Positions 31,710 to 64,000 of a stretch of 64,000 nucleotides of DNA are shown here, in pieces. The stretch's first letter is position 1; every line of letters starts with the position of its first letter. The stretch is from Epinephelus fuscoguttatus (taxonomy: Eukaryota > Chordata > Actinopteri > Perciformes > Serranidae): positions 27,137,617-27,201,616 of the forward strand of contig NC_064762.1 in NCBI RefSeq assembly GCF_011397635.1. Direction: 5' to 3'. The notes beneath the pieces are model-generated. The model was given only the letters and a program-made list of their open reading frames with translations. It made no database searches and was not told where the DNA came from. A program made the translations under genes and the position numbers.

Positions 31710-32345
31710 GTTGACAACACCTAAAATTGGAGCCTAAAAAAAATACTAGAAACACTGACTGGTTGCTACAAAACACCCATAATTAGAGCTTAAAAAGGCA
31801 ACTAGAAACAGCGACTGGTCTGTACAAAATAACCACAACTGGAACTTTAAAATGCCACTAGAATCACCGACTGGTTGCTATAAAACACCCACAAATGAAG
31901 CCTAAAAAGGTCACTGGAAACAACGACTGGTTGCTACAAAACACCCAAAATTGGAGCCTAAAATGGCTACTAGAAACACTGACTGATTGCTACAAAACAC
32001 TCATAATTAGAGCTTAGAAAGGCTACTAGAAACACCGACTGGTCTGTACAAAACACCCACAACTGGAACCTTAAAAGGCCACTAGAGTCACAGACTGGTT
32101 GCTACAGAACATCCACAGATGGAGCCTAAAAAGGTAAAAGGTCACCAGAAACATTGACTGGTTGCTACAAAACACCCACAATTGGAGCGTGAAAGGCCAG
32201 TAGAAACATTGACTGGTTGCTACAAAACACCCACAATTGGAGCGTGAAAGGCCAGTAGAAACACCGACTGGTTGCTACAAAACACCCACAACTGGAGTCC
32301 AAGTAGCTGATAGAAAAACAGAAATGATTGCTAAAACACCACCAG
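31710..32345 (+). repeat. 56-bp minisatellite, about 11 units, with four-unit higher-order pattern
   Basis: Unit core GACTGGTTGCTACAAAACAC, CCACAATTGGAGCCTAAAAA, GGCCACTAGAAACACC. Variants recur every four units: the GGTCTGTACAAAA type at about 31815 and 32039, and the CATAATTAGAGCTTA type at about 31778 and 32010. Two units near 32155-32265 are almost identical. The monomer is part of the dispersed repeat at 3.27 and 52.87 kb. Confidence 0.88.
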
Positions 32346-32841
32346 TTTTGTTTTTTCTTGATCTAGAACAGTGGTCTGCAGCTTGGCAAACATCTTGTCG
32401 AGGTGACATGCTGTCCAACATCCCCACACCCTCTCGAGGACAAAGTCAGCTCATATATTATGTCACTTTAGAAATTTTGGTATAATTTGTATGAAACATG
32501 CAAACTGAATGAATTTGTGGTTTGCAGAAACTTTCCACGCTAACATTTTCTTTGGTGACTTGGCTGTATAATGCAAGTCTATGCTGCAAAAAACAAGATA
32601 CATTATCAGATCCATTCAATTTACAGTTAAGTGGTTTGTACACCACATCAGCCTTTTGCTGTCTGTAACTGAGGGTTCAGGTGTAGCACTATGCTAGAGT
32701 TACTGTCTACAGCGTATATCAGGAGGAACGTGAAGATGACATTTCCCTGCGGCATGTCTGCCCTCGACGGACACTGTTTCACTCAGATCAGCAGATCAAG
32801 ACCTGATCACTTTACATAGGGCAGTATTGTAACTACTGTAA

Positions 32842-44780: not shown

Positions 44781-44786
44781 TTTATT
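44781..44786 (-). promoter_or_regulatory. Poly(A) signal of piscidin gene 1
   Basis: AATAAA on the minus strand, about 210 bp after the stop codon. The surrounding sequence (GCTGAATAAA and the following C/A-rich stretch) is conserved at the 3' ends of genes 2, 3 and the partial gene 4. Confidence 0.75.
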
Positions 44787-44996
44787 CAGCAGGACAATTT
44801 GCAGTATTAAGCCATTTCACATTTTCTTTCAAAAACATTTTCTTCTTTGCTTCAGCAACCTGATATCTGTTTCAGGTTTATTATCCGTTGCAAAGCACTA
44901 AACTGTAGAAGTCTATAGGACAATGCATTTCCCTCCCCCCGCTAAACTATACAGCTTAAAAACTGCATTGCTGTATAACTTCAGTTTCAATAAGGT

Positions 44997-45823
44997 TTAG
45001 CCTTTGGTTTTTCCTCCTGCTGGAGGACTCTGCTGTTTCGATCCAGGCCTAGTCAAAGGAAGAAATTCAGATATGAATTTTAGGTTTTGAGGTATCTTCA
45101 GTTGGTCTTGTTTGATATTAACAGCAATTACTAGTCTATAGTCCTTACCCTGGAGCCGTCTCCTCAGCGGGGAGGCTGTTTTTAAACGCTAAACAAAGAG
45201 ATGAAAATATTTAATTACTAAACATGATTTAATAATGTCTAAATAATCTGTGCATCAATGATGCACTTGATTATCATCACTGATATCATCACAACAATAT
45301 TGTACTGGCAAATAGTGAACCAATTTAGCATTCTTTAGTCATTTACAGTACATTTAAACAAAAAAAGTCACTAAAAGTCACATTGAAATAAAAAATTATA
45401 GTTAAAAAATATAATGTCTCGGTGGGAGAAAAGAAATCAGTTCAAAAAAGAATCGCAATTTGACATATTTGCTGTTTCAGATTAGCTGTATATAAGCGTA
45501 ACTTTGAGGAGACAGGGCTGAAGTGGACACAGTGTCACTTAACCTTTCAATGCTGCCACCTTTCCACATGGCTTTTCCAAAAACAGCATATTCATGCACG
45601 ACTTATGGTATGCAAAATTGTTGTTGACGTAAATTGTAGGTGAATCTTTTAAAAAGTCAATACAGAAGTACACTTTTGATTTACCTGTCCATCCTGCCTT
45701 GGCACCATTGTATATGGCCTTGGCCCCGTTCCATAAATTTCGAAGGTGTTTCATAATACACTCCCCAGGTTCAGCCATGAGGACAACCAGCGACAACACG
45801 AGAAAGATCATGGTGCACCTCAT
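44997..45823 (-). CDS. Piscidin-family antimicrobial peptide precursor, gene 1 (piscidin-4-like, charge-reduced)
   Basis: Spliced precursor of 76 residues, read on the minus strand from three coding exons: 45823-45685, 45188-45149 and 45048-44997. Introns have GT..AG ends and phases 1 and 2, as in genes 2 and 3. Residues 1-22 are a hydrophobic signal peptide (MRC, then a Leu/Val-rich core, then AEPGEC). The mature part starts near Ile23 with [20 protein letters not shown], an amphipathic helix, followed by a Gly/Pro/Gln/Lys tail. Piscidins are secreted or granule-stored helical peptides of fish mast cells, granulocytes and mucosa that disrupt microbial membranes. Compared with gene 3, three Arg positions became Asn and one Thr, so the helix carries about half the positive charge. 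The ATG was chosen because it lies just inside exon 2 and starts the family signal peptide. Reading through the exon 2 donor (GWTGKS and onward) is intron, not protein. Family assignment is firm; activity is inferred. Confidence 0.88.
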
Positions 45824-45967
45824 CCTGGAAAAGCAAAACACATCACAAACACTTAATATGTAGCTCAAACATACCCACGTATCCAGCAGTATAGCAGGGC
45901 TACAAGTGAAGCACCAATGCTTTTTGAATACCCCAAAGACATTAAAGGAATAAGACAAATATTTTAC

Positions 45968-46079
45968 CTGTCCACAGACTGATAGTCAGAGCTAAAAGAG
46001 AGTGAGGTGAGCCACTGACAGATCTCCAGGAGATGTGAATGTCTGCGCCTAACAGTTGTGATGTACTTATGTTTTTATA
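45968..46079 (-). promoter_or_regulatory. TATA box and non-coding exon 1 of piscidin gene 1
   Basis: On the minus strand a TATAAAAA box lies at 46079-46072. A transcript starting about 25-30 bp downstream would give exon 1 ending at 45968, followed by a GTAAAA donor. The last bases of the exon, a CTATCAGTCTGTGG-like block, recur at the same place in genes 2 and 3. Upstream, at about 46098-46110, a CTCACAGTATTA block resembles one at the same spacing in gene 3. A C/EBP-like TTGTGCAAT lies near 46133. The function of these sites is inferred. Confidence 0.6.
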
Positions 46080-46084
46080 GGACA

Positions 46085-46819
46085 GGGGTTAAATTATGCT
46101 CACAGTATTAACATACACATCATTAGTCACTCTGTTGTGCAATGCCAAGTTCTGTAGGAAGATGACAAGATGTTTAAGAATTTTCAAGCAGTATCTGATT
46201 CGACTCTGTTTCCAAATGTTGAGAAACATCCTGAACTTTAAGTTTTAATTCTTCCAGTAGCTCCAGGATTTGTCTCTCTGAAGGGTTCAGTCCTGTCAAC
46301 AGCCTTTATGTCTTAGCTCAAGGTTAAAAGTTGACCCGAAATATGATTCGACTGCAGAGGTTTTTAGTTAATATACCTGCAGTGTACTGTAGGCCTACCG
46401 TGGCTGCGCTGTATTATACTAGTGACCGTTGATAAACCCAAGACAACCCACTTTAGATTAATTTCCTGCATCTGTGACACATTGGTTTGACCACTGCCCT
46501 GCCCCTGTAGGAGACTAGCTGCAGCCCTGAGTCTATTCAATCCAATGGGAAAATGTGAACATGAGTACAGATTATGACCGTGCCCTTCGCCCCATAGTCA
46601 CTGAAGTAAATTTTGGACAAATTTTTCACAAGCAAACATTCTGACACTAAAATAGCATTTTTTCACACACATAAATCAGGAGAAACTTTATTCGAGACAT
46701 GTTTCTGTTTCAGCAACATATTCTCACAAGATCTGGCAACAGCTGATGTGACCTTAAGTAGGATTTTCTGCTTCGAATCGACGCCATAACCTACGCTGTA
46801 GCTTGATGTGCACTAGAGG
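46085..46819. other. 5' flank of piscidin gene 1
   Basis: Upstream region with no further exon seen. Family-shared blocks lie only in its first about 60 bp. Confidence 0.4.
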
Positions 46820-47010
46820 CTGACATTTTTTCTGGAGTCCCACGGGTCACGTAATTCCCGTGGGATTCCCACGGGATGGGAATCAGTTTCACTATTCTTC
46901 ACGTGATTGGGACGAGATGGGGAAAAAAGTCAACGGGAGCGGGTGGGACTGGGAATCATAATTAGGCCTGTCGCAATATGCGATGAGTCGGTTAATTGCA
47001 CGGTAAATTA
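46820..47010. repeat. Dispersed DNA-element fragments upstream of gene 1
   Basis: Contains repeated CCCACGGG motifs (CTGGAGTCCCACGGGTCACG and ATTCCCGTGGGATTCCCACG) and then a new block starting TTAGGCCTGTCGCAATATGC. Both look like hAT/MITE termini common in fish, but no complete element could be bounded. Confidence 0.4.
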
Positions 47011-47820
47011 AAAGGGATTAATTGCCATATTCATGCGTGTTTGTTTTCCTCGTCTCTTTCCACCAAAAAGACTGGATGACAAGAGCATTCACTTCCGTGC
47101 ATCGTCTGGCAGTCAGGTGAATTGGTTCATTAGCGTAATGAATGGAGGGAAAGCTCTTGTCATGTATCTCCCCAGAAATGTAACTGCATGATGCGGCGAC
47201 GCAGGCCTCCTGTCTATTTTTGTAAGCTGAAACCATTTCCCTCAGTGGAAACAAAGCTCTTCCAAGACAAAAGAGCCTCCACAAAATGTAATGGAACCCA
47301 ATTTCGTAATGTTTGTTAAATGTTGCTGTAGTCCCTGGCTTCATATGAGTAGAGGAAAAGTCTGCTAGCCACTAGGCTGATTTATACAATGTAAAATGCC
47401 ATAGGCTTATGCTAATAATGTTAGCATGTTGTATTTGTGGGGAAAATGTGTCCAGATAAAGACAAGTGTTTGTCTGTGAATGCTGCGAGTTATAGTGAAG
47501 CTGATTTTTGTACTTGTGTTTGAAATTGTTGCTATTAAAGGGAAACTAATGTTTTTTTTTCAACCTGGGCCCTATTTTTCGATCTACTTTTGTTTAAATG
47601 AGTGATAGGATGTTCAATATTTGGCATTCCTCCAGTACGAAGCTAGGGCTGACCTGCCTGCAGCCCATAAGTGCGTGTTATATTAAATAATAGAGCACTC
47701 AGACAGCGTCAAACAACGTCAAAATACATCCACTAAAAGTGCATTTATTTCACACAGATAGGCTCGGATGGTTAGTATAATTATCCGACAACATAACGGA
47801 AAGGAGAAATGAACGTCTGT

Positions 47821-48017
47821 GTTTACCTTTAGCTGGATTCGGACATGTTCCTCTGCCTGTTGCTGCTCCCTCTCTCTCCTCGTCAGCTCTTGAATTTCAA
47901 TGAGTTCTGCGTCTGTGTATGTCCATGTACTCCGTGTTCAAATAAATACGGGCGGTCATCATATTCAAATGGCTCATTCAGATCCAGTTGGTCAAAATCG
48001 GGTAAAAATTCGGACAT
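47821..48017 (-). pseudogene. First-exon-like ORF of a multicopy family, minus copy (possible P2X7-like family)
   Basis: Reads MSEFLPDFDQLDLNEPFEYD then DRPYLFE from the ATG at 48017. After a one-base frameshift it continues as TDAELIEIQELTRREREQQQ and AEEHVRIQLK, ending at a GTAAAC donor-like site at about 47825. The acidic start with a PYLFE motif and Glu-rich coiled part recall the start of the teleost proteins annotated as P2X purinoceptor 7-like, which are often multicopy. The family call is tentative. The frameshift and lack of a downstream Cys-rich exon indicate a broken copy. Confidence 0.5.
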
Positions 48018-48161
48018 GTTTGTTGTGGCAAGTCAAAACACTCACTCAGAGAGTGAAAGTCTGGCTTTGAAATCTCACGTCTCGCGAGATTTGAGTTGTT
48101 GCAGGAAGTTACCGCTGGAGTGACCTTACAAACGCAAGGAGTTACTCTGTTTGGAGTAGTC

Positions 48162-48236
48162 ATGGCTGAATTTTCACCCAGTTTTGACCAACTGGATCTA
48201 GATGAGCCATTTGAATTTGATGACCGCCCTATATAT
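48162..48236 (+). pseudogene. First-exon-like ORF, plus copy in divergent orientation
   Basis: Reads MAEFSPSFDQLDLDEPFEFD then DRPIY, clearly the paralogue of the minus-strand ORF starting at 48017, but homology stops after the DRP motif and the frame runs into unrelated sequence. The two ATGs face away from each other across 144 bp. No further exons were recognised on the plus side. Confidence 0.55.
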
Positions 48237-48245
48237 ACCATTTCG

Positions 48246-48780
48246 TGTCATATTCTGTTGCAGAGTATCTTTGACTATACTTTGGTGTTTGGTGTAGATG
48301 CCTCTGTGGAGGTTTGATGTAGTCATTAATTTATCATTACGCATCAGTCCCAAAAAAAAAAAGCTCCCCCAAAGGCCAAGTATAAAGCTGCAGAAGTTGC
48401 AAAGAATGCAAACACTCCACTAAAGTACAAGTACCTTGACCTTGCATTTAAATGCACTTGGTTACATTCCACCACTGGTTGATGGGGAAGAATTTAATCT
48501 ATTATATCTGCAAAATGTTGTGCAAACAGTGTGAATAAAGCATTTGAGAGGCAACATTTAAGATCCTTATTGGTGTGTTTAAAGGACTGTTGTCTTAGAA
48601 AATAATATCGTAATACATAATACTGACAGTGCTCTAACTGTGCATGACAGTATAACTGTATTTTCTAATGACATTGACAAACAAACTATTTAAATTGGAT
48701 CCGTTACCTGATCTGTGTAATACTGTAAGGTCAGTATCAGCGTCAGTACCTGCTTTCTCATTGGTGCATTCTTTATATTC
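48246..48780. other. Intergenic DNA between the divergent ORFs and gene 2
   Basis: Holds a fragment of a dispersed repeat at about 48400-48480 (ACTAAAGTACAAGTACCTTG to CATTCCACCACTGG), related to the fragment at 33.95-34.14 kb. No gene. Confidence 0.4.
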
Positions 48781-48826
48781 ACTGAAATGAAAACACCAAG
48801 CACAGTTTGACTCTTTGTGTTGCAGT

Positions 48827-48832
48827 TTTATT
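48827..48832 (-). promoter_or_regulatory. Poly(A) signal of piscidin gene 2
   Basis: AATAAA on the minus strand about 195 bp after the gene 2 stop. The 48820-48970 stretch aligns with the 3' untranslated region of gene 3 (57725-57890), including a shared TTGCTTTGCAAAGC-like block. This confirms that the 49-kb exons belong to this family. Confidence 0.7.
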
Positions 48833-49026
48833 CATCAGGAGAGTTTCAGGTAGCATTTCATATTTTTAAAACCAACTGGAGCTGATGCCCAAATGATCTC
48901 TACATGATTCCTGCAAACCTAAAACTACCAGTTTGTTTGCTGATCCATTTGTTTCTTGCATTGCAAAGCTCAAAGCATTATATTTAGGGGTCATTGATTC
49001 CCCCAGCAGAGCATAGCTTATTAATA

Positions 49027-51999
49027 TCACATCTGCAACTCCCAGGCCTGATAATCTGCAGGAGCTTGATCCTGGTCTCCTGCTTGCACCAAGACAGGTC
49101 CATACCTTGACGTGAGAGGGAATTAAGATGCAGATTTGAGTTTGTGAAATCCTGGCTAATTCATCTCATTCACTATGCTTCTATAGATAATATATTTCTG
49201 TTTAATATTCACTTAAAAACAATTCCAAATAACAGTGAAGTCTAGTCATGAGGTCTTACTTTGCAGCCAACCTCAGGAATTTGCGGCCTAAACAGACAAG
49301 GAGATGAGAATGAAAAGACATTAGAACAATATCAAAGCATACATTATTGGATTTTTTCAGTATTTAAATCAAAAAATGATAAATTAATAATAAAAAAAAA
49401 ACAACAGTTGAAATACATTTTTTTTCTTTTTTTTTTAAAACAATCGCTAGCATCCTTTTGTCTCATCTGTAGCCAGATTTTCAAAACTCTGAACACAATT
49501 AGGGACTGTTCTTTATTTATCAGAGGAGAGGGGTGGCTGGGGTGTGTCTTATTCTTTGTTTTTTTTGTATTGGATGGACACTATACTCATGTATACAGGC
49601 AATATGAATAACCTTATTTCCCTGTGGTTATGTAAACAGCACATCCCGAATGTGAAAAATCTCCCCAAAACCTCATAAACGGCTTATTCATGACTCCATC
49701 ACTTTTACAGTATACCGTGCAGTTATGAAAGTGTATTGTCAAAAATGCACACATTTAACAAGTTGTGCTGTGATTGACTGTGTGTTCCTCTTGGATGGAA
49801 AGCAAATGCTAGTGTCTGAAAGAATGATTTCATATTGAGTCTGCTTTGCCGTGTTTTAATAGAGTTTGTGCATTGTTTGCATTTTGAAATGTATATATGT
49901 ATATATATTTATATATAATATATATATAATATTTTGTAATCTAATTTCAAAACATAATGAAAATAATTACCCGTTTATCGACCGGCCAATAGCCATTAGA
50001 GAATAAAAGTCAGTCAGCCAACTTTTGGCCGTTTGACGCCGATGTTAACACTAATAAAATGCAGGGAATATGGTGTTTTACTTAGAAATGATGTCCTTGT
50101 GTTACTTTTTGCACTATAACCTACCTCTGTTAAATTGGCAATAATAAGAACAACTCTGGTACTGTGAACATACATGTGAATGTCTTAATTCATATAGACT
50201 TTGCATGATTATTTTATTTCCCATAGGTTTACTGCCTTTTTGCACATCATATTGTTGATTTATTTTGTGTTCAGATTGTTCATATGCTGCTTGTTCCACA
50301 CAATTTCTGATAATAAAAGTATTTGAAAATAGTAAAATGTTCTTCCTTCAGTTTATAGCACAAGTGACGTCACTCCAGATTTCAAAGGGTTAAATCATCA
50401 CACTAGGATGTTAAGCAGAAAATTTACTTTGTGGCTAATTGTGTGTTGCATGCTGTTGGTAGGATTAGTTTTAAAACGTAATCCATCATAGATTACTGAA
50501 AACATGCCCTGAAATGTAATTTGTGATATATTCCTTTAGATTACTCCCACTAGGTAATGTATTCTACAATTTTTGGATTACTTTTGGAATACTGAAGAAT
50601 CGTCTTGCTGAGCTCATTTGTCTGGGTCTCATATTTCCATGTTGAAAATACACATCAGAGTCCTTGGTGTGGATCTCCTCTGCAATTGACGTGTGGCAGC
50701 TGCACTGCACACACTTTTTAAAAAATCTGTTAATGCGATATGCCTGCCTCCTATGAATTTAACACCGTGTCTTAACACCAAGCGAGAATTGCTCTCTGTC
50801 CACACATTTCTGTTACATCATGTAAACAAACCATGTGGGCTACCTATCAGCTGTGCACCCAACTGGAGGATGTAACCACTGAAAAGATGGGCAAGTAATT
50901 TATCCATCTATGTTTTCACCCTGAAAACAGAAAACACACATTTTATATTGTGATATTTGCAGATGATGTGATGTAATACAATACAGCCAAGAGCAGGTAG
51001 CCTGGCTTGTTTTTAGCGCTGATCATGTACCAGAAACTGTCAGCCCCCTGGCCCTCCTCAAGCCAGCTACCATCATAGTTGCATTTTTGAAGTTAAATAA
51101 GAAGGTGTTTAGGAAGCTTCATTTCAGCTTCCTTGATCAGCAGCTCTTCATCCATTGCAAAGCGTTAAAATCAAGCAACAGGAATCAGTAGAAACCATTC
51201 AAGTTGGAAACAGCACAGTCAAACTGATTTTGTTGCTGACGCTCACTCGTGTTGCATTCAGTTAGGACAAAGTGTTAGAGCACATAAAACAAAAAAGTTT
51301 TCCTTTCAAGTAATCTCTTCTTAGAAACAGTAGTTATGTTCAGAATACCACAAATTTAAACTGTCTATGGAATACATTTTATTTTATTATTTTATTATAT
51401 TATTTATATTATTTTAAATACGTAAACAGTTTATGTTTTCTTTTTTTTAATCTGTATTATTATTATTATTCTCTTAGTCCTCAACCTTGGTGATGTAGGT
51501 GTGTTACGGTGTTATGGGTTTAAAAAAATCTATCCTAAGTTTAGGTAAATTGCTTGATAGCAATAGTAAAATATGTAAAACCTACTTACCAAACATTTAC
51601 TGCTTATATGGGGAACTTTACGTAAAGTAAAACCAGTACATGATGCTCTTATATTTTTATGTATTACATTTTGTTAAAGTGTTAGTTTTGTGCTTTGTAA
51701 CAAATACCACTGAGCTGCCAGTACTGAAAAATATATAGTAAAACACAGAACTTAAAACAAAAGCAAGTAAAGATTTCCAATCCGTGTGAAGTGCCCGTAA
51801 ACATCTCATAGCAGTGCTTTGTACAGCAGCTGCAACCCTGTTTGCTTAAAGTTAAAACTGAATATATGTTCAGTTGTGATTCACCTCCTTTCTTTGCTTT
51901 TCTCCAGAAGGATCTGAAACGTTTTGAGCCCCGACTGTCCACAGGTTCAGTCATGAAGACAACCAGCGTCAGCACCAGAAAGATCACAATACACCTCAT
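49027..51999 (-). CDS. Divergent, highly basic piscidin-family peptide precursor, gene 2
   Basis: Predicted 73-residue precursor from exons 51999-51885, 49287-49260 and 49105-49027 (minus strand). The phases (1 then 2) match genes 1 and 3, and the frame stays open to the TGA at 49029-49027. Residues 1-22 are the family signal peptide (MRCIVIFLVLTLVVF, then MTEPVDS). The mature part begins RGSKRFRSFWRKAKKG and continues GRKFLRLAAKYGPVLV. About 12 of the first 26 mature residues are Lys or Arg, and the Phe-Phe/His start of typical piscidins is missing. The C-terminal part, QAGDQDQAPADYQAWELQM, is a Gln/Asp-rich acidic propiece like that of classical piscidins. Exon 2 is 24 nt shorter than in genes 1 and 3. 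Intron 2 is about 2.6 kb against 0.35-0.5 kb in the others, so exons 3-4 could alternatively be the relic of a separate gene. The consistent phases favour one gene. Confidence 0.72.
49300..51884 (-). other. Intron 2 of piscidin gene 2 (long), with AT repeat and a possible 3' UTR relic
   Basis: No coding sequence was recognised here. It holds a poly-A/poly-T-rich part (49390-49440), an AT dinucleotide tract (about 49888-49935) and, at about 51090-51190, a weak match to the 3' untranslated regions of genes 1 and 3 (CATCCATTGCAAAGCGTTAA). That match might be the relic of a lost piscidin copy, or chance. Confidence 0.45.
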
Positions 52000-52093
52000 C
52001 CTGAAAAACAAGAACACATCACAGCAGTCACATTCAGAATCAGCTAGCTTCATTAGACTTCATTAAAGCAATATATAGAATTTTACTGCTTAC

Positions 52094-52195
52094 CTTTCCA
52101 CAGACTGAGCATCAGAGAGAGCAAAGAGAGCAGTGTGAGATCTACAGGTGATGTGAACCTCTGAGCCTCACTGTTGAGGTACCTGCCTCTTTATA
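52094..52195 (-). promoter_or_regulatory. TATA box and non-coding exon 1 of piscidin gene 2
   Basis: TATAAAG on the minus strand at 52195-52189. Exon 1 ends at 52094 before a GTAAGC donor, and its last bases (CTCAGTCTGTGGAAAG) match the exon 1 ends of genes 1 and 3. The segment 52140-52196 aligns with 46020-46080 of gene 1 (GATCT-CAGG-GATGTGAA), so the promoters are paralogous. Confidence 0.6.
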
Positions 52196-52729
52196 GGGAC
52201 AGAAATCTATGAATTTTCTCAGACTACACTTTTCATTTAGTAATATTGTATTTTTCATTGTATTTTGCAACATCAAGCTGTCTAGACACATTACAAAATA
52301 TTGATCTAATCGCAATTTCCAATCCCACTTCTACAAATTTAAGGTTTTTGAGGTGTGCGAACGTGATGTTTGTCTTCTGTTAGACAACAGGCCAATTTAA
52401 CTCTTACTAAATACATTTGAAAAACAGCCCTAATATGGTGGTAGAATGATGTTGACAGTCACACACATAAAAAAAATACAGGCTCGCTTGTTGGCATCAT
52501 AGGATGGGTTCACAATTTTGCAACTCCTAAAAGAATGGTCAGCTACCTGTATGTACAATGAAACAGGTTTTGGATATTGTAATTGTTCCTTCTGTCCACA
52601 CTGGCTATTCAGATATCCCTTCCTAAAGTGACCAATGTTTTCTGGTGACGGTTGTGAACGTTTCTGCAAGCCAAGGATATGTTACATTTGAATGCTATTA
52701 TGTAGTAGAAACATTGAAACTAACATGTA

Positions 52730-53830
52730 GTTTTGTTAAAGCACAAAAACCACTTGGTTATGGTTAGGAAAAGATCATGTTTGGACTTAAAATACCCAGT
52801 TTGAAAGGCACAATCCCAGCAGGAGAAGTAGTGCTGTGTTGGTAAAAAACAGCAGCACTGTCCCTGTGAATGGGTCGCAACAAAACACCCATGTTTGGAG
52901 CCTAAAACGGCAATGGAAAACACTGACAGTTTGCTGGAAAACAGCCATGAGTGAAGCCTAAAAGGTAATGGAAACAACGCAATGACACATCACAACGCAG
53001 CCGGTTTAGTTGTTTGTTGGTCTGCACTGTGGTCTGCAGCTTGACAGCCATCTCGCCTAGTTGACACTCACCATCCCCCTCCACCTCCTGACGCCTGTAC
53101 TGCGATGCCAGTTTAGCTTCCCCAGGATATCTTCTCGTTATCAGGTTTGACTAACCCTAACATTGGCCAATAACGGCTACTACAAAACTGGTTATCAACT
53201 AGTTCAGTCAGCTCTGGGTTTTCCTATCCAGCCAGGAGTGCGTTCATGTGAAAGAGGCAGGGGTGTCAATTACGAGCGACATCATCAGAACCATGAATGA
53301 AGTAGGCTACTTCATATCATATGAGATGAAACGGTACCCAAAGTGTGACTGCAAGACAGTAAAATGTCAGTGGCATTAGAAGTAAACGATACTCTGTAAT
53401 CTAATAACTGAAATGTAGAAATATTGAAAATACTATCCAAAAAGTCCGCGTTGTGTCGCAACATTAGTTTAGTTGGATGATGATAAACATGTCACATACA
53501 ACACCGTTAAGTAATGACAGACTGTTTCTGCTGCTTAAGTAAAGGGTATTAAATAATAACAATAGACAGGCCTACTCTTTTTTACCTGACACTCCGAACT
53601 TTTGTCCATGGATACTTTTTCCTTCGGTGATCTGATTGGTCAGATGTTCAGCATAAGTTGCCACAATGATTTATCCTGACAGAGAACCAGCTTAGTGGTA
53701 CTGAAAACTCAGCGTTAACCCTGAAGTTACCTTGCTAACTCCAAATCCTGCTTCGTAGTACTGGCCTCTGGTCATGTATTAAATCACTTTAGAAACGTTG
53801 ATATGATTCGTATGAAATGTGCCAATGTAA
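52730..53830 (+). repeat. Dispersed repeat (same family as 3.1-3.4 and 31.7-32.5 kb)
   Basis: Shares CAAAACACCCATGTTTGGAG with 3275 and with the minisatellite monomers at 31.7 kb. It also shares GGTCTGCAGCTTG (also at 32365) and the end block ACTTTAGAAACGTTGATATG (compare 32463). The repeated short frames here are repeat sequence, not genes. Confidence 0.7.
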
Positions 53831-55678
53831 GGTATTCATGGGCCTGTGCGGAGACTTGCGTTACCATTTTATGAAGGTCAGCAAGAATGATCAAGGTCAT
53901 ACTGATACATCGAACAATATTGTCCTTATGTTTACATACCTGTTTGTTTCCGTGAGAATTTCAGCAGCATAGCTGGTATGTTGTTACTTTTGGACTTTTT
54001 CTTAACAATGGTCCTAACCATTTAGAAACTGGATTTACAGTGTATTGCCTGTAAAGGAATCACTCTCTATACCTGGATTATGTTCCAATATTTTATTTTA
54101 TTTTTTTCACAATACACTTATAACATCAGAATATTCTTACATAAAATTCTTCAAAGAGTTGAAAGGTCATTGCTCTCTACAAAGGTGTACTTGCATTATT
54201 ATGACATTGTATTATCATTCTATCAGTGGCATAAAATCCACGAAATCGGTGCCTTTTCAACTTTGAAAACTTCAAATTTAATTTAGATTTAATTGCTATT
54301 TTTTTTAAGTAGCCAGGGATTAAAGGCAGTTAAAAGTTACAAGAAATTGTATTGTGCCATCTCAGGCTGTGGAATTTCATATTTTGTACAGTTTTGACAA
54401 TTGTTCGATTTAATGTCGTGATAGTTTTGTCAACCCTGTTACTGACCTAAGTATGAATATATCTAATATTCCTAGTTATAAATATGCAGTTATGTCAAAT
54501 CTGGAATGTACCATTATTTTGCAAAGTTGTTTTTTTTTTTTTTTTGTTGTGTAGCCTAACAGGGTTGACATGAAATCACGGGAAACTGATAAATTGATAT
54601 TTATTTAAAAAAAAAAATATATTTTTACCAAAATTACTGTTTAACAAAAAGATCAGTTTTAAAACATGTTAATGTGAACATTTTAACATTATGCCTACAT
54701 TTTATGAATGAAAAGTCTTGCTGAAGTACAATAATCATGGCAAGGGACAGGCCAAAGACCTCGCCCCTCATCAGCATAAAAGTAATTTTAATAATTTAAA
54801 ATAATGTCATATTTAGGACAGAAGACAAAGTAATGTTGTGATTAAATTACATAATTATTGTTATGGAGATTTTATGACTTGGGACCCAAAATTCACCGAA
54901 TCCCAAGATCCTTTATAACATTTTTTATTCCAATTCTTTCGGGAACTAAATATCATCCAACAGCAGTAGTTATTGTGTCCTTGTATGTAGCCTCTTTGTG
55001 GTTTGCACAACCATATCAGGCCAACTTTTTCCTCTGGCACATGGTCTAAGTGATGTGAGCCTGATAGACGACCCTCAATTTGTGAAAAAATACATTCCCA
55101 AGTTAATGTGACACTTGAATCAGTCTGAGCTAAACAAATAAAGTGGCCATTTTAAGTTCCACAGAACTTGAGCAACAGCTCACATTTAGTGATAGGGGCT
55201 TCATTACAACAAATCATTTGAAAAGAAAACTGACATGAAGTTTTGGCAGCGAAAGTAAGGATTTTTTAGAAGATACTTAGTAACTGTTGGCATCTAAAGT
55301 TAGTTGTAAGTGCACATGACTACACAGCTTGAATACCAGCAGGTGTTTTTACTTATGTTGCCTAATTAGACCTCTTCTCCAGACAGTGTGGGCAGAGTCA
55401 CCTCCCTCACCCCTCTGTTGGTTTTGTTGCATCTGTTGGGGTGGCACCACTTACCCTGCTATCAGTCTTAAGCCCGATTCGGATGGGATTAGTTTTACAT
55501 AGGTACGTGGGGTAAAGTAATAATTGCCAGAGATTTTAGTCCCGTCCAAATGTGCCATAATCATTACCGCACAATGTCAGTAAAAATTACCGCGACTTTT
55601 ACCTTCTGTAAATGCTCCGGGAAAATTACCTCGGGTAGTACTAATCCCATGCAAATAGTGCTTTATAAGTATACAGAG
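53831..55678. other. AT-rich intergenic DNA between genes 2 and 3
   Basis: No gene recognised. It has poly-T (54531-54545) and poly-A tracts. About 55465-55665 looks like a MITE-type fragment (AGCCCGATTCGGATGGGATT near its left end, ACTAATCCCATGCAAATAG as its inverted right end) directly abutting the hAT target site. Confidence 0.45.
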
Positions 55679-56722
55679 TAGGGGTGTAACAGTACACAAA
55701 AATCTCGGTTCAGTATGTACCTCGGTACACAAGTCACGGTTCGGTTTTTTTTTTCGGTACAGTAATGAAAAAAAATAGACAAATATTAAATATCTTTTAC
55801 TTATTGGTAACCTTATTAAAACATACCACCAAAGCAGTTAACTCTTTTTACACATTTTTTTGAAAGAAACAAATATATATAAAATCCTGCTTTTTCACAT
55901 TGTTTGAATGAAAATAGAAATATAAGAGTGAAAAATAAAATCCTGCTGTTTTTTTAACTCATTTTTTGAATGTAAAATATAAATATACATTTCTGCTTTA
56001 ACAGTTTTACTCAATTAAAATAAAAAGTATAGTGCAGCTGGTCAGCTTTAAAGCCTGCTCAGATTCAGTTTTACTAGGAACTTACTTAGCTTTCCCACTT
56101 TGTTAAAGTGCAGTAAACAAAACATGCTTATATCTAAAGTGCAGCTTAAACAATTTTACTCACCTCCAATGGCGTTGGGTATTTTTTTAGCGCGATGGTC
56201 AGGGAAACGCTCTTTCTTTTTAAACGACAACGATATCGTAGTTTGCACCAGATTGCTTTTTCTAGTCATGCCGGTTAATGTTCAAACTCGGATGGTGTCG
56301 CTTTAGATGTGTTAGCATGTTAGACGTGTTTCCAAGTACATACCCGACCACTGTTCTGCAGTGTCGGCACACTGCTTTTGTCTTGTCCACTTGTTTATTT
56401 CCATCTTCGTATTTTACCCTGAAACCAAAGTGTTCCCAAACGGAGGACTTAAGGTTTGCGGGTGGGTTTTCAGGTTCGTCAGGCTCACTTGCCATGTTGT
56501 CAAAATGCGAGAATGCGCTGCACAAAGTGAAAGCGGAGACTTACGGGACTCGGTCCGTCACTCAATTATGTCCGTCGGGGAACTAGATATTTTAAATGGT
56601 TCGGCTCGCAAAAACAGAATTAAAATAATATCCTGCGCCCAATAATTCGGTACAGGGTCGAGCCGAACCGAAAGTCGCGTACCTAACGGTTTGACACAAA
56701 TACATGTACCGTTACGGCCCTA
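55679..56722 (-). mobile_element. hAT transposon with BED zinc-finger exon (internally deleted)
   Basis: A 1044-bp element with inverted ends starting TAGGGGTGTAAC and TAGGGCCGTAAC, flanked by a perfect 8-bp target-site duplication ATACAGAG (55671-55678 and 56723-56730), diagnostic of hAT. On the minus strand 56495-56262 encodes 77 residues with a BED finger: SSVWEHFGF, CRHC, then HLKRHH as zinc ligands, as in ZBED-type hAT transposases. No catalytic RNase-H-like part remains, so it is non-autonomous. Confidence 0.9.
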
Positions 56723-56755
56723 ATACAGAGTTTTAGTGACATCATTTTCCCTTGA

Positions 56756-56817
56756 GATCCTCTTGAGACCCTGTGTCCTCATGTGTGGACATGAGGACAC
56801 AGGGTCTCAAGAGGATC
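56756..56817. repeat. Perfect 28-bp inverted repeat (hairpin) with 6-base loop
   Basis: Arms 56756-56783 and 56790-56817 are exact reverse complements (GATCCTCTTGAGACCCTG and on to CTCATG), with loop TGTGGA. A further direct copy of TGTCCTCATGTGTGGACAT follows at 56821-56839. In the duplicated copy only the right arm survives (about 62882-62910). Confidence 0.9.
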
Positions 56818-57730
56818 ATGTGTCCTCATGTGTGGACATTTTGGGGTTAACTTGACCTTATACTTTGTTCTGATTAACTTAGACCTGCTGTCCTCATTAA
56901 TGGACACTATTTTGTGCCATCTTATGGTAGTCCAACCACAACGCACTAAACCATGTAAAAACAAAATGGCAGCCATCTCTGCCAAGTCAGTCTGCAGCCG
57001 ATCCCACACAAAAGTGGACAAGGTCCAAAACCTGATCACATTTTATGGTTGAAACTATTATTTATGATTATTAATGTTTGTAGTTTGATACAGCAACACA
57101 TTTAACCAATATTAGTGACAGTTATAAGACGCTGCAAATTAGAAAACACTTGTGTGAAGACATTTAGATGTTATTATTGTCTCATTTGAGGACATTGGGA
57201 CTTTATGATCATTGACAATGTTGACAATGTGTTAAGGTTTTTATTCATATTAACTGGGTCCTACTGATCCCAAATAGCTAGAAAAAAATAAAAAATGCTT
57301 ACTGAGCAAAATATCTGGTCTCAGCGGGTTAAAAATAACGCTTACAAAATAACAGTCCTTCAATCACATGTGCTTGGTCACTGCTGAGTGGAAAATTGTG
57401 AATTCATCCCTTTTGACCACATTGTGATTAAAATGAATCTTTGTAATTGGGAATGATTAAAGTAGCAGTAAATATTTTGGCTGATTTCTATATTTTAAAA
57501 AATCCAAATGTAAAAACCTTCTTTTTTTTGACAAAAGCATCAACTGTGCTTCCTCTCTTAAATCCAAAGACTTGTGCTGCTTAATAAGAGACACAAGCTC
57601 ACTCAAAGTGATTGTTTTATAAACTCATTCCACCAAACACACATTGTTTTAAACATCTATTCTACCAAAGTTATGTAAATATTTACATAACTTGCAAAAA
57701 AACTACAAAGCAGACATGGCCTTTTACACA
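56818..57730. other. Spacer downstream of gene 3, no gene recognised
   Basis: AT-rich sequence shared with 62911-63820. It ends in repeat-like TCTCAGCGGGTTAA near 57318-57331. The short minus-strand frame at 57039-56779 starts in this spacer and runs across the palindrome, and it has no recognisable family. Confidence 0.5.
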
Positions 57731-57732
57731 AC

Positions 57733-57738
57733 TTTATT
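57733..57738 (-). promoter_or_regulatory. Poly(A) signal of piscidin gene 3
   Basis: AATAAA on the minus strand about 186 bp past the gene 3 stop, in the conserved 3' block GCTGAATAAAGTTGTG. Confidence 0.7.
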
Positions 57739-57923
57739 CAGCAGGGCAGCTTGCAATATTTAGCAATTTTAAATGTTTAAAACCAAATTGTAGCTGTGCC
57801 AAAAATAACTACATCTGAAGTAGTTTATACAAACTCCACAACAGGTTTGTTAACTCATGTTTTTGTTTCTTGCTTTGCAAAGCAGAACGCTGTGGCTCAG
57901 ATCTTCCCTTTGATTGAACAGAT

Positions 57924-58958
57924 TCATTTCTGCCAGTATGGCGGAGTTCCATTGTCCACTTCGTTTCCTCCACCCCTAGTTAGAGAGAGGAATCAAAGAA
58001 TTTAATAAGTGGATAACCTCGCAATATTTTTTCAAGCGATAGTTACAGAATTCCACTGATTCCAGTTTCTTGAATAAATCTGCTTTACTTCCCGGTACAC
58101 TCTAAAAAAAAAAAAACGTAACACTGCAACTTAATTTATGAAGTTGGTTAAAATCAAAACATTTTTAGACATTTTTGATTTGATTTTTAAATAGCTGGAT
58201 ATAATAAGGTGTGTAAAGATGTCTCGGTGAAATAATGATGGGTATGTCTCACTGTCATTTTGTAGATCAAATGAATCAGTTAGTGAGAGTAATCACATAA
58301 ACCAGGTGACCCGGTAATAGATAATTACACACTCTTCTTGAATTTGTTGTGAGGTTTAAAGTTTTTTGTTTTTTTTTTAACTCATTGATATCAGTAAGTA
58401 ATAGTCAGTGCTTACCCTTGATCCATCTTGCGCTGCTTAGACAAGGCTCTGTGTGCTAAACAGACAAAAAGATGTAATTGACGTAACATAATTATATTAT
58501 CTTGTTATCACAGTCTATGAATTTATTCATATTGGAATGTTTGAAATAATAAGCAACACAGAAGCTCTCTTTACTTATGTTTAGGGTTAGTGCTTTGCAG
58601 TAAACACAGCTGAGATGCAAGGACTAAAGAAAGACTTAGCATATATTGGAGCTGTAGTTGTATATATTTATGCATAATTTATACCAGATTGTTGTTGATG
58701 TCAGGTTAGGGTTACGCTAATAGAAAACATAGTGCAGAGCAAATGATGTTCTCTATTAGCCTAATGAGGAAGTGAGGTCTATCTGTTGAAGTTAACACAG
58801 ATGCGCACTTGTGATTTACCTCTCCATCCCTGCCTGGCACCCCTGAATACAGCCTTGGCCCCTCTCCAGATAGATTTTAAGTGTCTAAAAAAACACTCCC
58901 CGGGTTCGGCCATGAGGACGACCAGCGACAGCACCAGAAAGATCATAACAAACTTCAT
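57924..58958 (-). CDS. Piscidin-family antimicrobial peptide precursor, gene 3 (piscidin-4/5-like)
   Basis: Spliced 76-residue precursor from exons 58958-58820, 58455-58416 and 57975-57924 (minus strand). Exon lengths (139, 40 and 52 coding nt) are identical to gene 1, as are the intron phases (1, 2). Residues 1-22 are the signal peptide ending AEPGEC. The mature part starts [20 protein letters not shown] and goes on with [14 protein letters not shown], an Arg-rich amphipathic helix with Phe-Phe and His near the N-terminus. This matches the piscidin-4/5-like class of sea bass and croakers. The C-terminal tail is Gly-rich, then weakly acidic ([14 protein letters not shown]). It is expected to be a secreted membrane-active peptide of innate immune cells. 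An upstream in-frame ATG exists in intron 1, but the exon 2 acceptor (CAG just before GATGAAG) excludes it. Confidence 0.9.
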
Positions 58959-58981
58959 CCTGAAAAGCAAAACACATTTAG

Positions 58982-59036
58982 ATAAGATAGCTAGATAAGA
59001 TAGATAGCTAGATAGGTAGGTAGGTAGGTAGGTAGG

Positions 59037-59076
<40 letters not shown>
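58982..59076. repeat. GATA/GGTA tetranucleotide microsatellite in intron 1 of gene 3
   Basis: Runs of TAGA, then TAGG (about 59014-59037), then TAGA again, lying 24 bp upstream of the exon 2 start. Confidence 0.95.
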
Positions 59077-59190
59077 ACGACAATGTAACAAGACTACATG
59101 TCGTAACATTTCTAAAATGTCAATTGATATAACTTATCCTAATGACTTTGCATTAAGTAAAGCAAAATGAAAATGAAATATTAACTTTAC

Positions 59191-59288
59191 CTTCTGACAG
59201 ACTGATAGTCAAAAGACTGTTGTCAAGTTGCAGCTGTGGTCTCAACAGTTGATGTGAATTGTTGTTATACCCCACAGTTGTGATATAA
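59191..59288 (-). promoter_or_regulatory. Putative core promoter and non-coding exon 1 of piscidin gene 3
   Basis: Exon 1 ends at 59191 before a GTAAAG donor, and its end (GACTATCAGTCTGTC) matches genes 1 and 2. The best-placed TATA-like sequence is the weaker TTATAT at 59288-59283; another, TATAAC, lies at 59269-59264. A CTCAGTATTA block near 59322-59331 corresponds to one upstream of gene 1. Exact start sites cannot be read from sequence alone. Confidence 0.45.
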
Positions 59289-59299
59289 GATCATTTCAA

Positions 59300-60039
59300 G
59301 TGGGTGGGACAAACGTCACTTTCTCAGTATTAGTGTGAAACAGCCTATTACTGTATGATTTGTTTCACCATATTCTTCAAGCCACAAAACAGTGGTTAGA
59401 TTCAAAATCAACTTCCCTATATGAGGATACTTTGTCAACTGAACAAACTGGTTTTTACATTGCTTTGATATTATTGTTATGCTGGTGCACACAGGGTCGT
59501 GTCATGGTCCAAACATGAATCCATAGTTTACACAGACAAAGTACACTGATTCTACTCCTGGAGACACAAATGTGCTATTTAGATAAAGTTGACTTGACAT
59601 TTTTATGCCTCCACGCTGATAACAGCCAGAGGCATCATGTTTTTGGTTTGTCTGTTCCATTTTTTTGAACGTGCTATCTTGGGAACACCTTCTCTTCTAA
59701 TTTGGCACAAACATCAACTTGGACTTGGATGAACTGATTAGAGTTTGGTGGTCAAAGGTCAAGGTCACTGTGACCTCAGAAAACATGTTTTTGGTCATAA
59801 CTCAATAAATTATCGACTAATTCTACTAATTCAACTACTCAACTAATCATACATGTCAATATAGTGATAATTTGTATTTTGCCAAAAAATAAACCTAATA
59901 TCTCTTATTAAATTATTAAATTCCTTCAAAGTCTTCACTGTATTAGTCTGGACAGACATGGATGTAAACAGCAGCTCGACTGACTGGCAGAAGGTTTCAG
60001 CACATTTTTGCTCGGTCAAATAATTGGAAAAAAAAAGGA
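59300..60039. other. Intergenic DNA upstream of gene 3
   Basis: No gene seen. 59590-59830 resembles a dispersed fish repeat (TGCCTCCACGCTGATAACAG and TCAAGGTCACTGTGACCTCA), family not assigned. Confidence 0.4.
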
Positions 60040-60266
60040 GGTGGCACGGTGGTGCAATGGTTAGCATTGCTACTTCGAACCCAGACTGTGGGTGTTCGAA
60101 CCTCAGGGTGGGGGAGCCCTTCTGTGTGGAGTTTGCATGTTCTTTCTGTGTCAGCGTGGGTTTTCTCTGGGGACTCCAGCTTCCTCCCACAGTCCAAAAA
60201 CATGCAGGTTAATTAGTGACTCTAAATTGACCGTAGGTGTGAGTGTGAATGGTTGTCTGTCTCTCT
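60040..60266 (+). mobile_element. tRNA-headed SINE, 5' part (interrupted)
   Basis: Starts GTGGCACGGTGGTGCAATGG (A-box-like) with a B-box-like GTTCGAACCTC near 60093-60103, then the body also found at 13230-13600 in opposite orientation. It is interrupted at 60266 by a DNA element; the body resumes at 61400. Confidence 0.75.
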
Positions 60267-61399
60267 GGCCTCTAGTTTCGCAGACCGGGCGAGGGGTGTG
60301 GCCAGGTGGATTTTGCAAGTTTGGCACACCGTGCGCACTGGCACAGCTACTCCTCTTTCCCACCTCAGTCCCTCCTACCTGCGCAAGTCGGAAAGAGGGA
60401 GGAGAGAAGGCAGGGAGTGGGTTTTACACAGCCCATTCATACCCCATTCTCATTCACATCACACCAATCAAATGAGCCCCTCTCCTCGACCTTAAATGTG
60501 CCGTGCAAAGGCGTAATGAGAGTTTACTCAATTCGCCATGAGAGCAGCAGCGTCAGACGGCCAAACTTCTCCCAGGAGGAAACTAATGTTTTAGTCCGGG
60601 AGGTCCAAGGTCGCAGTGTCCAAATATACGGAACTGCGAGCAGACCTCCACAGGCTGATGATGCAAAGGTAGCCTGGGAGGAGGTCACCACAGTTGTAAC
60701 TCAATGTTGCGTTTCTCTCGTGTGCGCGCTCTCTCTCTCTCTTTCTCTCTCGCAGTCTCACTCTGTTTCTTTTCTTTTGACTTTTCTAAGATGACAGATG
60801 CTGAATATATACTCCCTATCTGATGCTGTGGCTGTTTGTGGTTGGCTGAGAGGGATGTGAACTCATTAGTTTGCAGCTGTGTTAATCAAATCAGGTTGGG
60901 TTTCCATTACGTGTGCCAAACATGCCAAACAGTGCCAATCCCCTTTGATCTGACATCAGATGTGACAGGACAGTCGATATAGAGATACATTTATGTGCTG
61001 ATTGCAGATAGTTGCATTGAATAGTTTTTTTTGTGTATTTATTGCATCGTTAATGTGCCTGACATTCTAGAAACCTGCTTGTGAGGTTTTGGTGACGTGT
61101 GCGCACTGTCCGCCGGTCAGTCAAACTTCCACTTACACCGGCTGCGCTCCGCCTGCGCTGACAGTAGACCTGGTTTCACCTGGCGAGCTTTTAGCGCACC
61201 TTCAGCGAAGCCTTTTGGCACGAAACTGTGACTGCGCCAAGCTGGTTCTGTTGACACCTCCCCCTGCTGCGCCGCCACACCCATCTCAGTGCACCTCGGT
61301 CTGCCAAATTACCAAACTGAGCGTGCCTCGGGTTGCGCTGCTCGAAACTAGCTCTGCGCGGGGTTCACCACCCTGCACTGTGCTGGGAAACTAGAGGCC
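60267..61399 (+). mobile_element. PIF/Harbinger-like DNA element with Myb/SANT-type ORF relic
   Basis: A 1133-bp insertion splitting a SINE. The inverted ends agree in 16 of 17 bases (GGCCTCTAGTTTCGCAG and GGCCTCTAGTTTCCCAG). The flanks TCT and TAT fit a mutated 3-bp duplication. The plus frame around 60516-60700 reads RRPNFSQEETNVLVREVQ and ADDAKVAWEEVTTVV, a Myb/SANT-like DNA-binding start as in the accessory protein of Harbinger elements and in NAIF1. It is truncated after about 60 residues and no transposase was found, so the element is non-autonomous. Superfamily assignment is inference. Confidence 0.65.
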
Positions 61400-61527
61400 T
61401 ATATGTCAGCCCTGTGATAGTCTGGTGACCTGTCCAGGGTGTACCCCGCCTCTCACCCAAGGTGGGCTGGGATAGGACTGGCTGGGACCCCTAACAGGAT
61501 AAGCAGTTACGGAAAATGAATGAATTA
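61400..61527 (+). mobile_element. tRNA-headed SINE, 3' part (interrupted)
   Basis: Continues the SINE body (TATATGTCAGCCCTGTGATA) exactly where 60266 stops and ends in AGGATAAGCAGTTACGGAAA plus an AATGAATGAA tail. The tail resembles the end of the RTE-type LINE at 20.9 kb. Confidence 0.75.
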
Positions 61528-62308
61528 TTGAAAAAAACCTGGAAACACCCTTTAAAGTGTGGATTACTCACAATTAAAGGTTCATACTTGTATTTAGTTT
61601 TCACCCTCTGTCTTAAACACTTTTTTAGTGCCCCTACTGAGAATGCCCAGTTTGCTCTGATTGGTCAGGGTTTCCAGGTCTCTGCATCGTCACTGCAGCC
61701 AGGGAATTACTGTAAATCAGTACAGCTGCACTTTTTACTGTGAAAAATCAAAGCTTCTAAACCAAAGTTTTCACAACAAGACATGTTCAAGCAGGAGCAT
61801 TATCCAACACTGGGGAGAAATCAACAGCATCACCAGCCAAGAGTACATGTTTCCCTGATGTTAGCATGTAGCTACATGTAGCAGTGTAGGCTACATAATG
61901 TAGACACTTGCAGTAGCGTGCCTGGAGCACATGATCATATGACAGATGGGTCAAGATCAGTCTTATAAATAAAGGAAAATATTTGAAAAAAGTGTATGGA
62001 GAATGGTCTAAAGCTTGAGGTTGTTGTTTGCCGTATTAACTTTACCATACATTAAGCTCATTATTTGAAACTTTTGCCATGTTTATTATGAACACCTGAC
62101 ACTGTAACATTATAAATATGACAAAAAAATTAAAAAGCGTTATAGGACCCCTTTAGAGGTTGACAGTGGTACTACATTTATTCATGCATGTTTTCAAAGC
62201 AGTGCTTTTGTTCCTGACTGATGTTTGCAATAGGATATGGAGTCATTACATTTATTTGGCAGCAATTTACAGTTATCCTACCCACATCATGAAAACAACA
62301 CATGCAAC
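61528..62308. other. Intergenic DNA, no gene seen
   Basis: Lies between the SINE tail and the left junction of the right duplication copy. It is low in CpG with stops in all frames; nothing was recognised. Confidence 0.5.
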
Positions 62309-62858
62309 AACAAAACATGCTTATATCTAAAGTGCAGCTTAAACAATTTTACTAAACTCCAATGGCGTTGTTTATTTCTTTAGTGCGATGGTCAGGGAAA
62401 CGCTCTTTCGTTTTTAAACGACGACGATATCGTAGTTTGCACCAGATTGCTTTTTCTAGTCGTGCCGGTTAACGTTCAAACTCGGGTGGTGTCGCTTTAG
62501 AGCGTTAGCATGTTAGACGTGTTTCCAAGTACATACCCAACCGCTGTTCTGCAGTGTCGGCACACTGCTTTGTCTTGTCCACTTTTTTATTTCCATCCTC
62601 GTATTTTACCCTGAAACCAAAGTGTTCCCAAATGGAGGACTTAAGGTTTGCGGGTGGGTCTCCAGGTTCATCAGGCTCACTTGCCATATTGTCAAAATGC
62701 GAGAATGCGCTGCACAAAGTGAAAGCGGAGATTTACGGGACTCGGTCCGTCACTCAATTATGTCCGTCGGGGAACTAGATATTTTAAATGGTTCGGCTCG
62801 CAAAAACAGAATTAAAATAAAATAATATCCTGTGCCCAATAATTCGGTACAGGGTCGA
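62309..62858 (-). pseudogene. Truncated second copy of the BED-finger hAT exon
   Basis: Duplicated with the segment. The frame starts at 62687 on the minus strand but a single-base loss in the T run near 62572 shifts it after VDKTK, destroying the CRHC zinc ligands in frame. Both hAT ends are missing. Confidence 0.85.
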
Positions 62859-63825
62859 GCCTGTACATGTCCATGTGTGGACATGAGGACACAGGGTCTC
62901 AAGAGGATCATGTGTCCTCATGTGTGGACATTACATTTTGGGGTTAACTTGACCTTATACTTTGTTCTGATTAACTTAGACCTGCTGTCCTCATTAATGG
63001 ACACTATTTTGTGCCATCTTATGGTAGTCCGACCACAACGCACTAAACCATGTAAAAACAAAATGGCAGCCATCTCTGCCAAGTCAGTCTGCAGCCGATC
63101 CCACACAAAAGTGGACAAGGTCCAAAACCTGATCACATTTTATGGTTGAAACTATTATTTATGATTATTAATGTTTGTAGTTTGATACAGCAACACATTT
63201 AACCAATATTAGTGACAGTTATAAGACGCTGCAAATTAGAAACCACTTGTGTGAAGACATTTAGATGTTATTATCGTCTCATTTGAGGACATTGGGACTT
63301 TATGATCATTGACAATGTTGACAATGTGTTAAGGTTTTTATTCATATTAACTGGGTCCTACTGATCCCAAATAGCTAGAAAAAAATAAAAAATGCTTACT
63401 GAGCAAAATATCTGGTCTCAGCGGGTTAAAAATAACGCTTACAAAATAACAGTCCTTCGATCACATGTGCTTGGTCACTGCTGAGTGGAAAATTGTGAAT
63501 TCATCCCTTTTGACCACATTGTGATTAAAATGAATCTTTGTAATTGGGAATGATTAAAGTAGCAGTAAATATTTTGGCTGATTTCTATATTTTAAAAAAT
63601 CCAAATGTAAAAACCTTCTTTTTTTTGACAAAAGCATCAACTGTGCTTCCTCTCTTAAATCCAAAGACTTGTGCTGCTTAATAAGAGACACAAGCTCACT
63701 CAAAGTGATTGTTTTATAAACTCATTCCACCAAACACACATTGTTTTAAACATCTACCAAAGTTATGTAAATATTTACATAACTTGCAAAAAAAACTACC
63801 AAGCAGACATGGCCTTTTACACAAC

Positions 63826-64000
63826 TTTATTCAGCAGGGCAGCTTGCAATATTTAGCAATTTTAAATGTTTAAAACCAAATTGTAGCTGTGCCAAAAATA
63901 ACTACATCTGAAGTAGTTTATACAAACTCCACAACAGGTTTGTTAACTCATGTTTTTGTTTCTTGCTTTGCAAAGCAGAACGCTGTGGCTCAGATCTTCC
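63826..64000 (-). other. 3' untranslated region of a fourth piscidin gene, cut by the window edge
   Basis: Near-identical to 57733-57907, the 3' untranslated region of gene 3, with its own AATAAA at 63831-63826. By alignment the stop codon would fall about 17 bp beyond position 64000, so no coding bases are inside the window. Presence of a gene beyond the edge is inferred from the duplication. Confidence 0.7.

Follow-up and report, generated by a model that had tools for sequence, protein, structure and literature searches.

Short coding exons on the minus strand of the analysed stretch of DNA, a window of 64 kb, raise the question of which peptide family they encode and how many genes they make up. 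The initial annotation proposed a same-strand cluster of at least four fast-evolving piscidin-type genes. The reading that we favour, with a probability of about 95%, is that three genes, A, B and C, form a piscidin cluster of a teleost, most likely a grouper, which would encode secreted membrane-active peptides and would have grown by tandem duplication.

Gene Structures

When the exons in the 64-kb window were spliced and translated, three complete piscidin-type coding structures were obtained, all on the minus strand, in agreement with the proposed same-strand cluster. Gene A (44997..45823) has coding exons at 45823-45685, 45188-45149, and 45048-44997, gene B (49027..51999) at 51999-51885, 49287-49260, and 49105-49027, and gene C (57924..58958) at 58958-58820, 58455-58416, and 57975-57924; the coding exons are numbered 1 to 3 below. 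The precursors comprise 76, 73, and 76 aa, respectively. All six coding introns are bounded by GT-AG, with phase 1 followed by phase 2 in each gene, and the ATG is always one base past an acceptor. Upstream, each gene likely has a non-coding first exon with an approximate start, at 45968..46048 in A (donor 45968/45967), 52094..52170 in B, and 59191..59265 in C (donor from reading of the sequence), all on the minus strand. A TATA-like box lies ∼30 nt upstream of this exon in A, another is upstream of it in B, and the one in C is weaker. The AATAAA signals are at 44781..44786 (A), 48827..48832 (B), and 57733..57738 (C), also on the minus strand.

In a side-by-side alignment, the three genes share the end of the likely non-coding exon (TCAGTCTGT...AGGTAA), the acceptor and donor context of exon 1, a 3′UTR block (GCTTTGCAA), and the AATAAA block. 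Hence the common signal peptide, intron phases, exon-1 end, and poly(A) block described by the initial annotation are real. Four exons and three introns, with a non-coding first exon and a tiny third one, is the published piscidin plan, matched here at the sequence level; the third exon, counting the non-coding first, has 40, 28, and 40 nt in A, B, and C, within the 19–49 nt quoted for fish piscidins (PMC7369796).

Searching the 64 kb with a nucleotide profile built from exon 1 of the three genes retrieved only the sites of A, B, and C (156.3, 156.0, and 113.3 bits), the next site having 4.3 bits; in 20 windows of this length simulated with a Markov model, the top scores lay between 1.1 and 6.3 bits. 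The initial claim that no long ORF would reveal these genes is not entirely accurate, as listed ORFs of 139 and 123 aa contain exon 1 of A and B, although both run into introns.

Family Identity

All three products match the pleurocidin/piscidin family PF08107 above the curated cut-off of 22 bits: A with 51.6 bits (E-value 7.8e-14), C with 53.9 bits (1.5e-14), and B, scored over exons 1 and 2 only, with 30.4 bits (3.4e-7). The 22-residue signal peptide is identical at 19/22 positions between A and C, 14/22 between A and B, and 12/22 between B and C. It ends in GEC in A and C and in VDS in B, the piscidin endings named in the literature being GEC, GES, or GEG (PMC5359322).

A cecropin- or moricin-like nature of the peptides, or any other identity outside the piscidins, has a negligible probability: a Moricin profile does match gene C weakly, at E 0.034 and 14.3 bits, under its cut-off of 27.6, but PF08107 is far stronger for all three genes, and A and C closely match published piscidins (see below). 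A search of solved structures yielded no piscidin relative, either with C alone (a single chance match, E 1.5) or with a three-row profile (25 matches, best E 0.09, mostly TRPV1). These null results are uninformative, because piscidin chains are short and the set of structures leaves out PDB chains of fewer than 20 residues.

Counterparts in Giant Grouper and Largemouth Bass

The printed peptides of giant grouper (Epinephelus lanceolatus) provide the closest comparison for gene A, which agrees with piscidin-1 (g6496.t1) at 27 of 28 printed residues; gene C agrees with piscidin-2 (g6497.t1) at 22 of 26, and the cross-comparisons give 12/28 and 12/26 (PMC7065771). The precursors g6496.t1, g6497.t1, and g6498.t1 have 77, 77, and 70 aa, compared with 76 aa in A and C, and gene B has no counterpart in this set as described there (PMC7065771). 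The giant grouper peptides were reported from liver cDNA, and the 77-aa coding regions were cloned by RT-PCR (PMC7065771). A review prints the g6496.t1 peptide, which corresponds to the mature part of gene A (45749-45689), as g6498.t1 with tilapia as the source (PMC8224320); this looks like a mislabel.

Judging by these comparisons, A and C are largely known genes, the counterparts of published giant grouper piscidins. The piscidin identity proposed at the outset and the same-strand array are well supported by the family matches, together with the closeness of A and C to peptides of giant grouper. Largemouth bass belongs to a fish group other than the grouper's. Its MsPiscidin2 is identical to the mature peptide of gene C at 21 of 27 positions, with six substitutions, and this C-like peptide is active against a fish rhabdovirus (PMC12229855). 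C alone is thus about as near to largemouth bass as to giant grouper. The most likely source of the window, a grouper or close relative whose sequence differs from that printed for giant grouper, is indicated mainly by A and the primers.

Primer Sites and the hAT Element

The window was searched for the primers published for the giant grouper genes (PMC7065771). The reverse primers of g6496.t1 and g6497.t1 match exactly at the ends of genes A (44997-45021) and C (57924-57944), the former taking in the stop of A. The forward primer of g6497.t1 matches with one mismatch at 61284-61267 (minus strand), in non-piscidin DNA ∼2.3 kb upstream of the ATG of C. That of g6496.t1 matches exactly at the ATG (56495) of an ORF in a hAT-type element, and with one mismatch at a second copy, at 62687. 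The g6498 type (EP, epinecidin-like) was not seen in the window: no site fits its reverse primer with up to four mismatches, and its forward primer has only a three-mismatch match, at the start of gene A.

The hAT-type element (55679..56722, minus strand) is 1,044 bp long, with terminal inverted repeats and an 8-bp target duplication (CTCTGTAT), and its ORF encodes a BED zinc finger (PF02892, E 2.2e-10). The second, partial copy (62309-62861, minus strand) has a shorter ORF and is one duplication unit away.

The position of the g6496.t1 forward primer could mean that the element beside C provides some transcripts with an alternative first exon, whereby a BED zinc-finger start is joined to a downstream piscidin. 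A donor at 56343 (7/9 consensus bases, phase 2) would indeed join exon 1 of A in frame. Still, we hold such fusion transcripts to be very improbable: a fused gene prediction is far likelier, since the cloned ORFs have 77 aa (PMC7065771) and no phase-2 donor scoring at least 6/9 was found after the g6497 primer site. The location of the g6497.t1 forward primer in non-piscidin DNA upstream of C also suggests a fused gene model. The simplest explanation would be that upstream exons had been included, and B skipped, in the gene models on which the primers were based.

Among other repeats, 31716-32297 is a tandem array of a 56-bp unit in ∼10 copies with a higher-order period of 224 bp; 52873-53066 is related to it (71% identical to 32215-32408). 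At 25551-25836, a 13-bp unit (TGATGGCGGTGGA) is repeated 22 times; on the minus strand the region carries a long histidine-/proline-rich ORF, which is probably not a gene.

Gene B

Gene B is possibly an undescribed, strongly cationic member of the family; a string search of open PMC papers for its peptide gave no match. Its exon 3 was set at 49105-49027 by aligning the acceptor with the acceptors in A and C; of all the exons it is the least certain, because many AGs could serve as the acceptor. The first coding intron (51884-49288) has 2,597 nt, more than the 126–1,654 nt given for intron 2 in piscidin genes of other fishes (PMC7369796).

The intron length could be taken as a sign that B is decaying or silent, which would leave A and C as the working cluster in the window. 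The Pfam score of B is also the weakest of the three, and B, despite lying between the sites of the g6496 primer pair, is missing from the giant grouper set g6496–g6498 as published (PMC7065771). On the other hand, B has a full-length ORF, GT-AG splice sites, a TATA-like box, and a poly(A) signal; the peptide is cationic and strongly amphipathic, and exon 3 starts at a column homologous to those of A and C. We therefore regard decay or silencing of B as unlikely.

The Right Edge of the Window

At its right end, the window carries 1,129 bp (62872..64000, minus strand) that copy 1,128 bp of 3′UTR and downstream DNA of gene C (56780-57907), 98.6% identical overall and 100% identical over the final 212 bp. 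The spacing of the C flank and its tandem copy is 6,092–6,197 bp. The copy starts at the base matching 57907, the 17th after the stop of C (which ends at 57924), and thus is without a coding base. Accordingly, of the at least four genes initially counted, three are intact, and what the window contains of a fourth is 3′UTR and downstream DNA. It is reasonable to infer from the duplicated 3′ flank that a C-like gene lies just past the right edge, and its exon 3 would be expected at about 64017-64068.

The two copies have diverged unevenly. On the gene side they differ at 5 of 1,089 aligned bases, compared with 21 of 497 in the adjoining hAT part (Fisher P = 2e-7, a nominal value, as the split was chosen post hoc and neighbouring sites are not independent). 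Four alignment blocks do not enter this count: two heavily gapped ones at the join, and two at the end with declining similarity. In addition, there is a deletion of ∼100 bp between the gene-side and hAT parts.

A copy of this length and identity that runs off the window edge might be an assembly artefact, namely an uncollapsed haplotype, in which case there would be no fourth gene. We consider this a minor possibility, though one to be reckoned with. The uneven divergence and the ∼100-bp deletion are more than expected of a simple allelic copy and therefore suggest an older tandem duplication. One reading of the uneven divergence would be an old tandem duplication followed by homogenisation near the gene. 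With tandem duplication as the preferred origin, the cluster would have grown by this process, and the youngest event visible would be that of a ∼6.1-kb unit with gene C and its flanks.

Peptide Properties and Possible Mode of Action

To characterize the peptides, we scored as the mature part the first 24–25 residues after the signal, encoded by exon 1 in A and C and by exons 1 and 2 in B. The net charge of this part is +4 in A, +11 in B, and +7 in C. The mature parts are amphipathic, with hydrophobic moments of 0.50, 0.77, and 0.79, values reached by fractions of 0.0008, 0.00035, and 0.0001 of 20,000 shuffles, respectively. AlphaFold predicted, with modest confidence, a helix at residues 24–48 of B (three-row alignment) and 22–59 of C (single sequence), the mean pLDDT of these models being only 61 and 68. 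Under the split used, with the cleavage site assumed, the C-terminal tail has a net charge of −3 in B and +2 in A and C. The prodomain of epinecidin-1 has been reported as anionic, unlike the tails of A and C.

Each precursor is thus predicted to consist of a signal peptide of 22 residues, a mature peptide that is cationic, amphipathic, and helical, and a tail at the C terminus. Secretion of the mature part would be expected at mucosal surfaces or from immune cells, after which it would bind and disrupt microbial membranes, as described for the piscidin family. Expression, processing, and killing of microbes along these lines is the likely mode of action of A, B, and C, and for B we infer it from the family. 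The reported activity of the synthetic giant grouper counterparts speaks for this explanation: MICs of 15–60 µg/ml are given, for 5 of 10 strains in the case of A's counterpart and 7 of 10 in that of C's, the other strains being given as ‘ND’ (PMC7065771). That these MICs are modest is a point against it.

Sequence Divergence within the Cluster

The mature peptides were initially described as differing strongly. This is true for B, but A and C agree at 11 of the 24 residues in the exon-1 mature part, with only 3 of 30 identical in exons 2 and 3 (ungapped). The latter exons are too diverged in A and C to judge their rate.

Between A and C, replacement and silent changes number 20 and 4 in the exon-1 mature part and 4 and 7 in the signal (Fisher P = 0.015). 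This fits a mature part that changes faster than the signal in A and C and, coming from one gene pair and few sites, is no proof of positive selection. The replacement excess speaks slightly for the description of the array as fast-evolving. At the same time, replacement changes outnumber silent ones in the signal of gene B as well (8 : 4 compared with A and 10 : 3 compared with C), and the differences of A and C from giant grouper are 1/28 and 4/26. So small a difference argues against very fast change of gene A.

Comparison with Other Piscidin Clusters and the Flanking Context

Similar arrays are known in other fishes. In European sea bass, five of the six piscidins 1, 2, and 4–7 are on one contig and are described as tandem, the exception being piscidin 1, which is found on another contig (PMC7369796). 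Like A, B, and C, they have four exons and three introns, a non-coding exon 1, a conserved signal, and a divergent mature part. However, none of the sea bass coding exon pairs (101/19, 131/19, and 119/40) matches those found here, which are 140/40 in A and C and 116/28 in B, including the G before the ATG (PMC7369796). In Nile tilapia, an exostosin-1a-like gene hosts the cluster TP1–TP5 in one of its introns (PMC3511469). This cluster is multi-gene like ours, and four of its five genes have the same four-exon plan (PMC3511469).

In an arrangement like that of tilapia, exostosin-1 exons would be expected to flank the cluster on the opposite strand. We searched the window by tblastn for an exostosin-1 catalytic-domain exon with a 267-aa EXT1 domain as the query (identified as exostosin-1) and found nothing better than E 1.3; the window may sit wholly inside such an intron. 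A Pfam scan of 20 of the 112 ORFs of at least 80 aa, one of them trimmed to its ATG, identified no flanking gene: only the BED zinc finger was above the curated cut-off, and matches to DUF1404 and At4g08330 were under theirs. Three of the remaining 92 ORFs cover exon 1 of A, B, and C.

Seen next to the sea bass (PMC7369796) and tilapia (PMC3511469) arrays, the locus is largely an ordinary grouper-type piscidin cluster, and the general view of such clusters is unchanged. It adds a map of a piscidin locus of grouper type, in which the highly cationic gene B is possibly undescribed, and suggests that the gene models behind the giant grouper primers extended into upstream repeats and passed over a gene. 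Both are useful to aquaculture immunology and to annotation.
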